A stretch of 64,000 nt of DNA from NCBI GenBank assembly GCA_036488875.1, contig DASXGW010000002.1, positions 124,001 to 188,000 of the forward strand, read 5' to 3'. Positions 8,985-14,064 of the stretch are shown in pieces. Position numbers and translations under genes: made by a program. Source of the stretch: Candidatus Baltobacteraceae bacterium (GTDB lineage: Bacteria > Vulcanimicrobiota > Vulcanimicrobiia > Vulcanimicrobiales > Vulcanimicrobiaceae). Every line of letters begins with the position of its first letter. Positions within the stretch are counted from its first letter, which is position 1. Below the pieces are notes generated by a model that ran no database searches, was not told the origin of the DNA, and worked only from the letters and a program-made list of their open reading frames with translations.

Positions 8985-9524
8985 GTGAACTTCCAAACGG
9001 TAAGCTTTGGCCGCGAAGCGACGGCGGCCGAGCGCGACGACGTCGAAACGGCCGTTCGCGCCCGCGGCGGTTCGGTAGCGTGGCGATCGAGCGCACGCGC
9101 CGGACGCACGTACGGGCTCGTCGGCCTGCCCGCCGGCGAACTGGCAACGGCAATCGGCACGGCGACCGTGCACGATACGGCGATCATCGCTCTTGCTGTT
9201 TACCCTGTGGCCGCCGAAGCCTTGCCGTTGGTTCGGGATGCGCTCGCCGGTGCCGGGCGGCCGTCGGGCGTCATCGGCGCGTGGAGTTGCGACGGCGGCG
9301 TCGTCGTCGAGTGGGATCCGCGGCGTACGGCAGCGGCGGCGATTTACGATCTCGTCGACGTCGAGCTGCGGCGTTTCGGCGGCGGACGCACGGCCGAGCT
9401 GCTCGCGCCGTTGCCCGACGACCTGGTCGCGCGCGTGGCGTCGGAGGGTCTTCAGGCTCCGGAGATCGCGCCGGACCGTCAGCTCGAGACGCTCGTGAAA
9501 CGAACCGGACTCGCCGATGGTTAA
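8985..9524 (+). CDS. Unknown protein encoded directly upstream of cdaA
   Basis: A 179-residue soluble protein I do not recognise. It has no signal peptide or membrane segment and reads like two similar alpha/beta halves: AAERDDVETAVRARGGSVAW with LVGLPAGELATAI, and EALPLVRDALAGAGRPSG with VVVEWDPRRTAAAAIYDLVDVELRRFGGG. It ends in a helical tail (LETLVKRTGLADG). GTG 8985 is the start offered; no clear ribosome site is seen. Its last eight bases overlap the cdaA start, which suggests coupled expression and a role with the c-di-AMP cluster, though that is inference. Confidence 0.6.
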   Translation: MNFQTVSFGREATAAERDDVETAVRARGGSVAWRSSARAGRTYGLVGLPAGELATAIGTATVHDTAIIALAVYPVAAEALPLVRDALAGAGRPSGVIGAWSCDGGVVVEWDPRRTAAAAIYDLVDVELRRFGGGRTAELLAPLPDDLVARVASEGLQAPEIAPDRQLETLVKRTGLADG

Positions 9525-10401
9525 CGAAATTCTTTCGTACGTCGGTATCACCGACGTCATCGACATCATCGCGACCAGCATCGTCATCTACTATTTCATT
9601 CTACTGATTCGCGGAACGCGTGCGGTCCAGATCTTGCTGGGCTTCTTCGTGCTGCTCGGGTTGCTCGGCTTGGCCAACGTGCTGCACTTCTTTTTGCTGC
9701 GCACGATTCTGCAGCTGATCGTCGTTGCCGTCGCCGTTGCGATTCCGATCGTCTTCCAACCGGAGCTGCGGCGGGCGCTCGAACAGATCGGGCGCGGCGG
9801 TCTCTTCCGCATGGACGCCGAGATCGGCGGAACGCGTCCCGAAGACCGCGCGATTGCGGCTCTCGCACACGCGGCCTTCCTGCTCTCGCGAAGCCGTCTC
9901 GGCGGCCTGATCGTCATCGAGCAGCAGAGCGGACTCAAAGAGTTCTGCGATACGGGAACCATGCTGGAAGCGCAGCTTTCGGCCGAGCTGCTGTTGGCGA
10001 TCTTCATGCCCCGTTCGCCGCTTCACGACGGTGCCGTAATCGTGCGCGAGAATCTCATCGAAGCAGCGGGCTGCTTCTTGCCCCTCGCGGAGCTGTCGCT
10101 GGGAAGAGATCGCATGGGCACGCGGCATCGCGCGGCGATCGGACTCTCCGAGCAAACCGACGCGGTGGTGGTCGTGGTGTCCGAAGAGACCGGCGCGATT
10201 ACGATCGCGCGCGACGGCAAGCTCTCGCGGCCGGTCGAAGAAGAGAACCGCCTCGCGAAGATGCTGCTTGCCGTCACGCGACCGCCGCGCACCGAACGGC
10301 GACTGCCCAACGACCTCGTGTCGCATCTCCGCTCGCGTTTGGTGTCGCCGCGCCGGCGTCAGGACTCACGTGCAGATCATCCGCAAGAACTTCGGACTTA
10401 A
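9517..10401 (+). CDS. cdaA: Diadenylate cyclase CdaA
   Basis: CdaA makes c-di-AMP from two ATP at the membrane. The 294-residue product has about three N-terminal membrane segments (ATSIVIYYFILLIRG, VQILLGFFVLLGLLGLANVL, TILQLIVVAVAVAIPIVF) and a DAC domain with the catalytic DGA in SPLHDGAVIV and the RHR motif in GTRHRAAIGLSE, both intact. An Arg-rich tail of about 35 residues follows the domain. The ATG at 9517 overlaps the upstream unknown gene. It is followed by cdaR and glmM, the same order as in Firmicutes, where CdaR modulates CdaA and GlmM binds and inhibits it. Confidence 0.95.
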   Translation: MVNEILSYVGITDVIDIIATSIVIYYFILLIRGTRAVQILLGFFVLLGLLGLANVLHFFLLRTILQLIVVAVAVAIPIVFQPELRRALEQIGRGGLFRMDAEIGGTRPEDRAIAALAHAAFLLSRSRLGGLIVIEQQSGLKEFCDTGTMLEAQLSAELLLAIFMPRSPLHDGAVIVRENLIEAAGCFLPLAELSLGRDRMGTRHRAAIGLSEQTDAVVVVVSEETGAITIARDGKLSRPVEEENRLAKMLLAVTRPPRTERRLPNDLVSHLRSRLVSPRRRQDSRADHPQELRT

Positions 10402-11044
10402 ACTTCTGTCGTTCGTGCTGGCGATCGTCGGGTGGGCGTATTTTCGCTTCGCTACCAATCCGATCGTCGCCGCAGCGCATTTCAATCAGCAGCTGTCGTT
10501 ACCGATCACGCAGATGAACCTGGCACCGGGACTCCTCGTGCACTACACGGATACCAACGCGGTGGTGACAGTCGATCGAAAACCCGGCGCGCCGGCGATA
10601 CGGCCGGACGAGATTCGCGCCGTACTGGACCTGTCGAATAAGGGGCCGGGCGTCTATAACATTCCGATTCAGCTGGTCGCGCCGGACGTCGCCGTGCAAA
10701 GCCTCAGCCCCGCATCGGTGACTTTGTCGATCGAGCGCAACGAGGAGCGGGCGTTCACGATCGTCGTGCACTACGTTGGGGCTCAGCCCGGCGTCGTCGT
10801 CGCCGATCAGCAGATTCGGCCGAACGCGGTGACGGTGCAAGGCCCCAGCTCGATCCTCTCGCAGGTAACGGCGGTTCGCGTCGACGTGGTGCTCCCGGCC
10901 GCGCCCCTCAACGCCGATGAGTCGCTGCGCCCGCAACCGGTCAACGCCATGGGAAGCGAAGTCTCCGGATTGCAAGTCGCTCCGGACCTCGTGCGCGTCG
11001 AAACGAAGTTTGCGGCCGCGCGCGGTGCTGGAGCGCATCGATGA
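10370..11044 (+). CDS. cdaR: CdaR-like YbbR-domain protein
   Basis: CdaR is the membrane-anchored extracytoplasmic regulator of CdaA. The 224-residue protein has one N-terminal membrane anchor (LKLLSFVLAIVGWAYFRFA) and then about two YbbR-type beta repeats (SLPITQMNLAPGLLVHYT..., IVVHYVGAQPGVVVADQQIRP), fewer than the four in Bacillus. The GTG at 10370, with AGGA just upstream, is preferred over the longer frame at 10268, since IIRKNFGLKLLSF is the expected N-terminus. It overlaps cdaA by 32 bases and glmM by four, so the three are one translational unit. Confidence 0.85.
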   Translation: MQIIRKNFGLKLLSFVLAIVGWAYFRFATNPIVAAAHFNQQLSLPITQMNLAPGLLVHYTDTNAVVTVDRKPGAPAIRPDEIRAVLDLSNKGPGVYNIPIQLVAPDVAVQSLSPASVTLSIERNEERAFTIVVHYVGAQPGVVVADQQIRPNAVTVQGPSSILSQVTAVRVDVVLPAAPLNADESLRPQPVNAMGSEVSGLQVAPDLVRVETKFAAARGAGAHR

Positions 11045-12393
11045 GCCGGCTGTTCGGAACCGACGGCGTACGCGGCGTCGCCAATCGCGATCTGACGCCC
11101 GAGCTCTGCTTTCAAATCGGACGCGCCGGCGCGAGCGTGGTCGCGCGCCATCCCGGTCCAATAATTATCGGGCGCGACACGCGACTGTCCGGATCGATGC
11201 TCGAAGCCGCGATTGTCGCGGGAATCACGTCGGTAGGGCGCGACGCCGTGAGCTTGGGCATCGTTCCGACGCCGGCCGTCGCCTGCGTCACGCGCCGCGA
11301 AAACGCCGCGGCCGGCGTAGTCATCAGCGCGTCGCACAACCCCATCGACGACAACGGCGTAAAGTTCTTCGGCCCCGACGGTTTCAAGCTGTCGGACGAA
11401 ATGGAGAGCGAGATCGAGTCGCTGGTGAACTCGCCGACGCTCGCGCGGCCGACCGGAACCGGCGTGGGCGCCGCGCAGCTGGCGCAGAATCTCGGGCGTC
11501 ACTACTACGACGAACTGTACTCGAGCGGCGCCGATCTGCGCGGGTTGCACGTCGTCGTCGACGGCGCCTACGGCGCGGCCTACGCGGTGGCGCCCTACGC
11601 CTTGCGCAAACTGGGCGCCGACGTCATCGAAATCAATTGCGAAAACGACGGTGCGCGTATCAACGTCGACTGTGGGGCGACCGATTTGCGCCCGCTGCAA
11701 GCTGCGGTTCGCGAGTGTTTGGATCGGGGCAACGAACGCGTCGTCGGCGTCGCGTTCGACGGCGATGCGGACCGGGTGCTGTTTGTGGACGAAACGGCGA
11801 AAGTCGTCAGCGGCGACCACGTGATGTTTGCGATCGCACGCGATATGCAAAGGCGCGGCGAGCTCAGCGGCAACGCGATCGTGGGCACGGTGATGAGCAA
11901 CATCGGTTTCGAACGCGCGCTGCGCGCGCACGGCATCGGTCTGGTGCGCGCCGCGGTCGGTGACCGCTACGTGCTCGAGCAGATGCGCGCCGGTGGTTAT
12001 GCGCTCGGTGGCGAGCAATCGGGGCACGTCATCGATTTTCGGCGGAATACGACCGGCGACGGTCCGATGACGGCCGTAACGGTGTTAGGCATCGTCGCGG
12101 CAACGGCAGCGCGGCTGCACGATCTGGTTTCCGAAGTGGTCGTGGCACCGCAAGTGCTCATCAACGTGCGGACGCCGCGAAAAGACGTGCTGGAGCGGCC
12201 GGAAATTCGCGACGCGATCGCCGCCTCCGAGCGGGCCCTGGCCGGGGTTGGAAGGCTCCTCATACGCCCGTCCGGAACCGAGCCGCTTATCCGAGTCATG
12301 GCGGAAGGGGACGACCGGAACCAGGTGGAGCAGGTGGCTGCTCGCCTTGCCTCCCGGATCGAGGAGGAGATCGGGCGCTTAACCCAAACCTAA
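11041..12393 (+). CDS. glmM: Phosphoglucosamine mutase
   Basis: GlmM interconverts glucosamine-6-phosphate and glucosamine-1-phosphate for UDP-GlcNAc and hence peptidoglycan synthesis. The 450-residue protein shows FGTDGVRG at the N-terminus, the phosphoserine loop SASHNP at residues 96-101, the metal loop DGDADR, the sugar-binding GGEQSGH and the phosphate-binding RPSGTEPLIRVMAE. The length is normal. The ATG overlaps the cdaR stop (ATGA). With glmS at 42-43.9 kb, two steps of UDP-GlcNAc supply are in the window. In Firmicutes GlmM also represses CdaA directly; that is known biology, not shown here. Confidence 0.96.
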   Translation: MSRLFGTDGVRGVANRDLTPELCFQIGRAGASVVARHPGPIIIGRDTRLSGSMLEAAIVAGITSVGRDAVSLGIVPTPAVACVTRRENAAAGVVISASHNPIDDNGVKFFGPDGFKLSDEMESEIESLVNSPTLARPTGTGVGAAQLAQNLGRHYYDELYSSGADLRGLHVVVDGAYGAAYAVAPYALRKLGADVIEINCENDGARINVDCGATDLRPLQAAVRECLDRGNERVVGVAFDGDADRVLFVDETAKVVSGDHVMFAIARDMQRRGELSGNAIVGTVMSNIGFERALRAHGIGLVRAAVGDRYVLEQMRAGGYALGGEQSGHVIDFRRNTTGDGPMTAVTVLGIVAATAARLHDLVSEVVVAPQVLINVRTPRKDVLERPEIRDAIAASERALAGVGRLLIRPSGTEPLIRVMAEGDDRNQVEQVAARLASRIEEEIGRLTQT

Positions 12394-12408
12394 TCCGCCG
12401 TAGCTCAG

Positions 12409-12426
12409 GGGACCCGGTCGGGTCCC
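12409..12426 (+). terminator. Hairpin after glmM
   Basis: GGGACCCG and CGGGTCCC form a perfect eight-base stem around a two-base loop (or seven around four), 15 bases after the glmM stop. No U-tract follows, so factor-independent termination is doubtful. It may partly insulate the operon from the riboswitch transcript that follows. Confidence 0.4.
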
Positions 12427-12449
12427 GATATATACACTACGCCTGCACA

Positions 12450-12572
12450 AGAACACTGAATCGGCCCCGGATAGGGCCGAGCGGGGGAGATCTCGGTAGG
12501 GGTGAGTGAGCCGGTCCGGCTCTAGGGCGCATCTTTCAGCCCGAACCCGTCAACTAACCTCGCAAGTGTTGT
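12450..12572 (+). promoter_or_regulatory. c-di-AMP riboswitch (ydaO-yuaA type)
   Basis: The segment matches the conserved ydaO-yuaA layout. A closing helix pairs AACACT (12452-12457) with AGTGTT (12565-12570). Inside are a 7-bp hairpin (TCGGCCC 12461-12467 with GGGCCGA 12474-12480), the purine run GCGGGGGAGA, the block GGGGTGAGTGAG (12499-12510, compare GGGGUGAAUC), a 7-bp hairpin (12508-12522), and GGGC/GCCC pairing (12525-12528 with 12539-12542). It ends with the hallmark CCCGAACCCGTCAACTAACC TCG. The ribosome site AGAGGAG at 12576-12582 follows at once, so control of translation is likely; I see no U-tract terminator. The downstream gene is an NlpC/P60 hydrolase, a known target class for this riboswitch. 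Confidence 0.88.
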
Positions 12573-12589
12573 GAAAGAGGAGCCGTTTC

Positions 12590-13213
12590 TTGCGTCATGC
12601 GTTAGCTGCTGGGGCTTTTGCCCTTTTGATCGCTGCATCAGGCGCGATCGCCAAGGCTGACTCACCTACCACTACGTCGCCCGATTATTCTGAATCGGCG
12701 ATGACTCAGTCCGTCGGAACTCAGGCCGCAAGTCCTGACGTCGCCGAGTGGACGTCGCATTTGGTCATTTCAGCGCCGCGCCGCGAACGCGGCGGCTTCG
12801 GCCGCTTTGCCGGCGGCATCCTGGCGCGCACCTCGAAGCTTGCGCAAACCCTGACGCGCAGCGCGCTGCGCTTCCTGGGCACGCCGTACGTCTTCGGCGG
12901 AGACAGCGCGTCGGGTTTTGACTGCTCGGCGTACGTGCAGCACGTTTTTGCCATGATCGGCATTTCGTTGCCGCGCACGGCCGATGCCCAGTACGACGTA
13001 GGCCGCCCCGCCGTGGGTGGACCGCGTCCGGGCGATCTGGTCTTCTTCCAGACGTACACCTACGGGCCGTCCCACGTCGGGATCTATTTGGGTAAGGGGA
13101 AGTTCGTCCACGCCAGTTCCAGCCACGGCGTGATGGTTAGTAACCTTTCGGAATCCTATTGGGCGGCGCGCTATCTCGGCGCAAAACGCCTCATCGCCTC
13201 CAACGGTAAATAA
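12590..13213 (+). CDS. Secreted NlpC/P60 cell-wall endopeptidase under riboswitch control
   Basis: A 207-residue exported protein with a signal peptide (ALAAGAFALLIAASGAIAKA) and, from about residue 88, an NlpC/P60 domain that cleaves peptidoglycan stem peptides. The catalytic cysteine is C112 in GFDCSAYVQ, the histidine H162 in SHVGIYLG, and the third polar residue is probably H174 (FVHASS). The linker of about 60 residues has no SH3 or LysM module. The start is TTG 12590 with AGAGGAG seven bases upstream. The leader is a c-di-AMP riboswitch, so expression should fall when c-di-AMP is high if it works as an off switch like known members. Confidence 0.9.
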   Translation: MRHALAAGAFALLIAASGAIAKADSPTTTSPDYSESAMTQSVGTQAASPDVAEWTSHLVISAPRRERGGFGRFAGGILARTSKLAQTLTRSALRFLGTPYVFGGDSASGFDCSAYVQHVFAMIGISLPRTADAQYDVGRPAVGGPRPGDLVFFQTYTYGPSHVGIYLGKGKFVHASSSHGVMVSNLSESYWAARYLGAKRLIASNGK

Positions 13214-13628: not shown

Positions 13629-13700
13629 TGGGGCGTAGCCAAGTGGTAAGGCAACGGACTTTGACTCCGTCATGCGATGGTTCGAATCCATCCGCCCCAG
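13629..13700 (+). tRNA. tRNA-Gln (anticodon TTG)
   Basis: A complete 72-base cloverleaf. The acceptor stem TGGGGCG pairs with CGCCCCA, discriminator G at 13700. The D arm contains AGTGGTAAGGC, the anticodon stem-loop is ACGGA-CTTTGAC-TCCGT with anticodon TTG, and the T arm is GATGG-TTCGAAT-CCATC. The CCA end is not encoded. The first pair T-A is unusual for most tRNAs but normal for tRNA-Gln. Confidence 0.95.
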
Positions 13701-14064
13701 CTTTCTTGTTAGGCGCCACGCCTTTGCCAGCACACTGAAAGAGTTCCCCAGCCGCGCAACGATTAACGCGGCTTCAGTTGCATCCCTTAACGCGCGCCAA
13801 GGCCTCGCTCCGCCTACAATCCGCCAGGAGTAGAATCCCGGACGGGTCGCGTCATGGAGTTATCCACAGGATATTCGCATGCAATCCCCACGAGGGGATC
13901 TCGCAATGCCTAATAGTTCACACGCGGCACTAACTCAAGTGGACGGGCAACATCATAGAGTTTTCCCAAGGTACGAGTGATGTGTTATAATAGGCACTCA
14001 GGCGGCCGCTGAATAAAGCCCATAGCGGCAGCGACGTCGGCGTACCAAAAGGGGGTGCCATGCG
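13701..14064 (+). other. Non-coding stretch between tRNA-Gln and the HEPN module
   Basis: 364 bases without a convincing gene and clearly richer in AT than the flanks. It holds a single perfect DnaA-box 9-mer (TTATCCACA, 13860-13868), which is expected by chance about once per window of this size, and a likely promoter at 13983-13991. No terminator with a U-tract follows the tRNA. I searched for a second copy of the tRNA 3-prime end downstream of the module and did not see one. Confidence 0.5.
13983..13991 (+). promoter_or_regulatory. Extended -10 promoter for the HEPN module
   Basis: TGT immediately followed by TATAAT (13986-13991) is a full extended -10. A weak TTTTCC at 13961-13966 is the only -35 candidate, 19 bases upstream. 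It is 74 bases ahead of the first gene of the module. Confidence 0.45.

Follow-up and report, generated by a model that had tools for sequence, protein, structure and literature searches.

A c-di-AMP riboswitch and an NlpC/P60 hydrolase gene behind cdaA-cdaR-glmM in class Eremiobacteria: a probable feed-forward module acting by translational repression

The window analysed here is a stretch of 64,000 nucleotides (nt) from a Candidatus Baltobacteraceae bacterium (assembly GCA_036488875.1), in which genes for making and regulating cyclic di-AMP (c-di-AMP) lie immediately ahead of a c-di-AMP riboswitch and a gene for an NlpC/P60 cysteine endopeptidase, all on the plus strand. The membrane-anchored diadenylate cyclase gene, cdaA (9517-10401), was identified from its match to TIGR00159 'diadenylate cyclase CdaA' (221.3 bits against a cut-off of 188.8) and to the Pfam DAC domain PF02457 (140 bits). 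The protein carries the DGA and RHR motifs, as read from its sequence, and aligns with solved CdaA chains at E values down to 1e-37 and better. The transmembrane domain model CdaA_N (PF19293) scored 23.7 bits on it, marginally below the cut-off of 23.8, and the alignment to a full-length solved CdaA starts at residue 13. At the GlmM interface, where Bacillus subtilis CdaA has Arg126, the alignment pairs AKRR with SRSR, so that the choice of arginine equivalent to R126 is ambiguous. The next gene, cdaR (10370-11044), has a GTG start, overlaps cdaA by 32 nt and encodes a YbbR-domain regulator (PF07949, 37.1 bits against 22.3). It is overlapped by 4 nt (ATGA) by glmM (11041-12393), which encodes a phosphoglucosamine mutase matching the equivalog model TIGR01455 with 527.5 bits against 447.6.

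The c-di-AMP (ydaO-type) riboswitch aptamer, at 12444-12584, matches RF00379 over its full length (model positions 1-134) with 77.8 bits against a gathering score of 38 (E 2.3e-16), and is the single match to this family in the 3.7 Mb genome. It begins 50 nt after the glmM stop codon, and its last base lies 5 nt before the TTG start codon of the hydrolase gene (12590-13213). The hydrolase scored 115.2 bits against 23 with PF00877, shows the expected Cys-His-His residues (in DCSAYV, SHVGIY and FVHASS) and is likewise the single NlpC/P60 match found in the genome; none of the named NlpC/P60 subfamily models scored above its cut-off on this protein. It is a probable peptidoglycan-cutting endopeptidase, and its N-terminal signal-like segment suggests that it is probably secreted. 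The original prediction, made from the letters of the window, had named cdaA, cdaR, glmM, the riboswitch and a peptidoglycan hydrolase in this order and on this strand, and all five are present as it described. Its spacing, which put the riboswitch and hydrolase 200 bases after glmM, holds for the hydrolase (∼200 nt from glmM), but not for the riboswitch, which starts much closer.

We surveyed 99 genomes of the same family (f1), placing all matches on their contigs, and found the riboswitch in 84, the cyclase domain in 92 and an NlpC/P60 protein in 86. Riboswitch and cyclase shared a contig in 71 cases. In 70 of these the riboswitch followed the cyclase domain on the same strand at a distance of 1.7-4.3 kb, and in 64 the distance fell in the narrower range of 2.0-2.5 kb. 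The exception, G048, has ∼15 kb between the two. In the same-contig cases an NlpC/P60 domain came next on the same strand, within ∼250-500 nt of the riboswitch. Two genomes depart from this: their contigs had no NlpC/P60 match, and the contig sequence ends 22 and 211 bases away from the riboswitch. The arrangement was also found in a second family of the order (f2, 2/2) and a third family of the class (f3, 7/7), giving 79 of 80 same-contig cases; the f2 and f3 hydrolases have an added LysM domain in the examples checked. By chance, a single riboswitch would come to lie on the correct strand and no more than 5 kb behind a genome's one cdaA with a probability of ∼0.001 per genome. The arrangement is therefore an old, conserved trait of the class Eremiobacteria, and it was probably acquired once. 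The original prediction had looked to synteny in close relatives, where absence would have spoken against it; the arrangement is present there, and its statement that maker, regulators, sensor and output adjoin is borne out in the window and by this class-wide linkage.

Fifteen riboswitch matches lay on a contig other than that of the cyclase. Among them are three second copies that have different targets and one half aptamer split between contigs, and several others are at contig ends. G046 seems to be truly unlinked, since its riboswitch contig lacks the cyclase despite 4.6 kb of upstream sequence. Two genomes with a cyclase and no riboswitch were inspected (G067 and G071), and their contigs stop 0.7 and 1.2 kb past the cyclase domain, so that the missing riboswitch is an assembly gap. 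The riboswitch-hydrolase pair remains intact where glmM has been separated from it, by an M61 peptidase gene (G057 and G097; loci L135 and L136), by a PMT_2-type gene (G123; L144) or by ∼13 kb (G048; L133), which suggests that expression of the pair on its own is possible. At two loci (L131 and L132, in G003 and G044) riboswitch and cyclase lie ∼500 nt closer together, and no open reading frame (ORF) of the size of cdaR was seen between cdaA and glmM; cdaR may have been lost in these lineages, with the riboswitch and hydrolase kept.

The position of the ribosome site within the aptamer bears on how the riboswitch may act. The Shine-Dalgarno sequence AGAGGAG (12576-12582) lies 7 nt before the TTG start codon and inside the 3' tail of the aptamer, and it is kept in relatives, with similar placement in nearly all of 45 related sequences. 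The hydrolase start codon is nearly always the weak TTG, by a simple rule in 41 of 44 cases, two of them doubtful since an ATG stands directly before. A loop strand of the aptamer, UCUUUCA (12532-12538), is complementary to a tail strand, UGAAAGA (12572-12578), which overlaps the 5' part of the Shine-Dalgarno sequence and occupies the same position as the loop-tail complementarity of crystallised ydaO. In the printed sequence of that RNA the complementary segments are CUCCUUCG and CGAAGGAG, and a stable pseudoknot was reported (PMC5393176). The pairing is conserved and covaries, both strands having changed among the relatives. The window has UUUCA/UGAAA, family f2 has UUUCC/GGAAA, genus g35 has UUUCUC/GAGAAA and G086 has UUCUUCC/GGAAGAA, while G010 has ten pairs. 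Across 45 sequences each loop paired better with its own tail (mean -10.9 kcal/mol) than with swapped tails (-9.9 kcal/mol), and 0.025% of 20,000 permutations did as well, in a test that takes no account of relatedness among the sequences.

A search near the riboswitch returned no terminator-like site. The hairpin GGGACCC-GGTC-GGGTCCC at 12409-12426, between glmM and the aptamer, has no T run after it and was not reported as terminator-like. The lack of a terminator, the Shine-Dalgarno sequence in the aptamer tail, the covarying loop-tail pairing and the weak TTG start together point to translational repression, and we put the probability of a c-di-AMP feed-forward module of class Eremiobacteria that acts on the hydrolase in this way at roughly 0.7. 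CdaA, restrained by CdaR and GlmM, would make c-di-AMP, which would bind the aptamer that leads the mRNA of the adjacent hydrolase gene. Once occupied, the aptamer would be locked with its loop-tail pseudoknot (12532-12538 with 12572-12578). This would cover the Shine-Dalgarno sequence of the hydrolase over its 5' half and abut its GGAG core, such that 30S subunits could not dock. High c-di-AMP would then mean less NlpC/P60 endopeptidase, and the enzyme would be made when c-di-AMP is low, the state expected under hyperosmotic stress or while CdaA is complexed with GlmM. In Firmicutes, CdaA is known to be inhibited or regulated by GlmM and CdaR (PMC8573169), and the nlpC riboswitch of Corynebacterium glutamicum, also without a terminator, represses in reporters, apparently at translation (PMC9960051).

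Several observations weigh against this proposal. Within the Shine-Dalgarno sequence the pseudoknot takes in only AGA, and GGAG remains free, so that repression would depend partly on a steric block, and the relatedness of the 45 sequences tempers the permutation result given above. A plain fold of the segment was no more stable than shuffles (z 0.19), a result that is uninformative either way because pseudoknots and ligand lie outside its model. We found no binding, transcript or protein data for this phylum. Finally, a similar terminator-less leader of Streptomyces coelicolor is cited in PMC9960051 as having given terminated transcripts in vitro.

The last point leads to transcriptional attenuation, in which c-di-AMP binding would cause premature termination within the leader, a mode seen with B. 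subtilis ydaO/kimA and suggested for Streptomyces rpfA. The B. subtilis prototype does act in this manner, as cited in PMC9960051, and riboswitches before kdpA (L129) and an alanine racemase gene (L128) outside the class precede terminator-like hairpins. However, the 5 nt between aptamer and start codon leave no room for a terminator in the window, none was found, and the spacing is equally tight across the family, and we regard attenuation here as unlikely. The direction of control could also be reversed: in the ligand-free RNA the 3' strand of P2, CCUC (∼12558-12561), would pair with GAGG of the Shine-Dalgarno sequence, and c-di-AMP would draw CCUC into the aptamer and turn the hydrolase on. 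The two strands are indeed complementary in the window and lie ∼15 nt apart, but each is conserved for other reasons, and 21 of 45 related riboswitches have CCCCG in place of CCUCG with the Shine-Dalgarno form unchanged, which breaks the alternative hairpin. Since the measured precedents are OFF switches as well (PMC9960051), an ON switch strikes us as decidedly improbable, and translational repression is retained as the preferred mechanism.

The meaning of the adjacency is a separate question, to which a conserved element upstream of the riboswitch contributes. We identified a bipartite motif, GGAGGAGA-N15-AAACC, at 12363-12390 on the plus strand, within the last glmM codons of the window and non-coding in other genera. 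In an exact scan of the 99 whole genomes it occurred 9 times, in seven genera, each time on the strand of the riboswitch and 12-72 nt ahead of it and nowhere else, while a reversed control pattern gave two matches. It was also seen at equivalent places in L004, L006, L013, L015, L032 and L038, and a position-weight scan found the full form in only part of the family. An RNA element at the motif is not supported, no consensus RNA structure having been obtained. Ten loci were searched at permissive Rfam thresholds for another known RNA in the stretch from glmM to the aptamer, and good scores came only from the riboswitch and a downstream tRNA. The motif is a candidate promoter for the unit itself or a candidate regulator site.

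Such a promoter would suit the possibility that an independent riboswitch-hydrolase unit landed behind glmM in the ancestor of the class and stayed there, tied to the cdaA operon by the diffusible signal only. This possibility is compatible with the translational mechanism and concerns only what the adjacency means; it is also consistent with pairs that stay intact behind an M61 gene, a PMT_2-type gene or ∼13 kb, and with the G046 pair on a contig without a cyclase. On the other side, linkage kept in 79 of 80 same-contig cases across three families suggests selection, and we consider adjacency without coupling a serious possibility that falls short of even odds. The original prediction had gone further, describing a self-contained c-di-AMP loop, taken here as mutual feedback among maker, regulators and sensor, and the adjacency of the parts on one strand fits that description. 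The riboswitch, though, is 3' of cdaA, cdaR and glmM and 5' of nlpC only; it would control what follows glmM and, by itself, have no feedback on cdaA, and the sequence shows no feedback route to that gene. The genome encodes its likely c-di-AMP/pApA phosphodiesterase elsewhere, on contig C14 rather than the cdaA contig (L158:1444-2424, minus strand). This is a DHH-DHHA1 protein, of NrnA/DhhP type, whose gene neighbours a truB-like one; its best family model is NrnA, with a score below that model's cut-off. A closed loop therefore appears very improbable, and that part of the original prediction is not upheld. A fuller version of the feed-forward module, which we advance tentatively, is that GlmM-gated CdaA sets c-di-AMP and that the adjacent leader doses the main (here the only) NlpC/P60 enzyme by Shine-Dalgarno occlusion, as an old, fixed-order envelope module with its own conserved upstream element, the bipartite motif.

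Among the genomes surveyed outside the class we did not find the cdaA-adjacent riboswitch arrangement. Four genomes of other classes of the phylum have the riboswitch on a contig other than that of the cyclase. Two of these four riboswitches are those before the alanine racemase gene (L128, G108) and kdpA (L129, G110), each followed by a terminator-like hairpin. No c-di-AMP riboswitch was detected at 22 Bacillota-type cdaA loci, and 11 of the 22 had a glmS ribozyme, in ten instances 2.4-3.0 kb downstream of cdaA. We considered whether the riboswitch occupies an ancestral glmS-ribozyme slot behind glmM and rejected this, as neither riboswitch nor ribozyme was present at four cdaA loci from the phylum's other classes; the riboswitch thus looks like a class-level gain and not a remnant. 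By eye, the slot behind glmM in other classes holds a glmS-like protein in G105, a polA-like one in G110 and a peptidase-like one in G099.

Extra riboswitches were noted within the class. A second c-di-AMP riboswitch stands upstream of a GT4 glycosyltransferase gene at L117, L118 and L119 (G034, G064 and G066), and a gene of the S6PP (sucrose-6-phosphate phosphatase) family follows the GT4 gene in L119 and apparently also in L117 and L118, an order that suggests c-di-AMP control of compatible-solute synthesis. Family f3 has extra c-di-AMP riboswitches (L120, L121, L122, L124 and L126) before genes for exported or lipoprotein-like proteins, of which two are PF04185 phosphoesterases, one has a laminin-G-like domain and the others have no family match.

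The host group comprises little-studied, double-membraned soil bacteria. The genome (3.7 Mb; completeness 97.6%) was assigned to Ca. Eremiobacterota because the nearest named cdaA loci, at 89-63% identity, nearly all carry that label. The original prediction that the host is a probable diderm gains support from an Omp85/BamA-family protein encoded in the genome and from Vulcanimicrobium alpinus, a cultured member of the phylum with a Gram-negative wall and an outer membrane covered by lipopolysaccharide (LPS) (PMC9758169). At the 5' side of the locus a 179-aa ORF (8985-9524, plus strand) overlaps the cdaA start by 8 nt and is the probable first gene of the operon; this ORF, cdaA, cdaR and glmM overlap consecutively on one strand. 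It has no match in Pfam or NCBIfam; an ORF ending at the cdaA start is present in several relatives too. On the other side, a tRNA gene (Gln, TTG anticodon) at 13629-13701 lies 3' of the hydrolase, at a similar distance in 10 of 10 relatives scanned, and synteny therefore reaches past the module.

Most of what is established about c-di-AMP signalling comes from monoderm Firmicutes and Actinobacteria. In the present case an LPS-diderm class keeps an RNA sensor and a wall-cutting enzyme next to the synthase and its regulators, and nearly every member has a single riboswitch in its genome. If the fuller version of the module is right, peptidoglycan precursor supply would be wired to peptidoglycan cleavage within a single gene neighbourhood in a diderm. 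This offers a simple, testable case of the effect of c-di-AMP on the wall, with a single direct RNA target beside GlmM, which feeds wall synthesis. It also provides dozens of natural leaders for the study of translational c-di-AMP switching, of which the literature searched yielded one measured example, and V. alpinus is at hand as a cultured member of the phylum.

The closest known counterpart is in C. glutamicum, a mycolate-layered actinobacterium in contrast to the LPS diderm examined here. Its nlpC gene (cg2402) likewise has a ydaO/kimA-type aptamer before an NlpC/P60 wall peptidase, with repression apparently translational; in the model proposed in that study, part of the riboswitch forms a pseudoknot with the ribosome site (PMC9960051). 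The C. glutamicum system differs in its synthase, DisA, which is encoded in an operon with radA and away from the target (PMC9960051). The Bacillota loci of B. subtilis, Staphylococcus aureus and Listeria monocytogenes have the identical three genes, cdaA-cdaR-glmM, in the same order (PMC8573169, PMC6368335); they differ in that the 22 Bacillota-type cdaA loci scanned gave no c-di-AMP riboswitch. The riboswitches of B. subtilis ydaO/kimA and Bacillus thuringiensis kdpFABC (the latter PMC6488665) share RF00379 with its loop-tail pseudoknot. They differ in controlling the transcription of potassium transport genes, whereas here the gene is for a wall hydrolase and no terminator is present. Pseudoknot formation hides or blocks the Shine-Dalgarno sequence in SAM-II and preQ1 riboswitches, whose aptamers and ligands are unrelated, so that the likeness is one of mechanism and not of membership. 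We found no literature linking Eremiobacterota with riboswitches or c-di-AMP in a search that did not include the founding c-di-AMP riboswitch papers, such that an earlier mention is possible. All parts of the locus belong to known families, and a c-di-AMP riboswitch before NlpC/P60 is already known from Actinobacteria; what appears to be new is the position of the target directly behind cdaA-cdaR-glmM, class-wide, in LPS diderms and with one riboswitch per genome as a rule.

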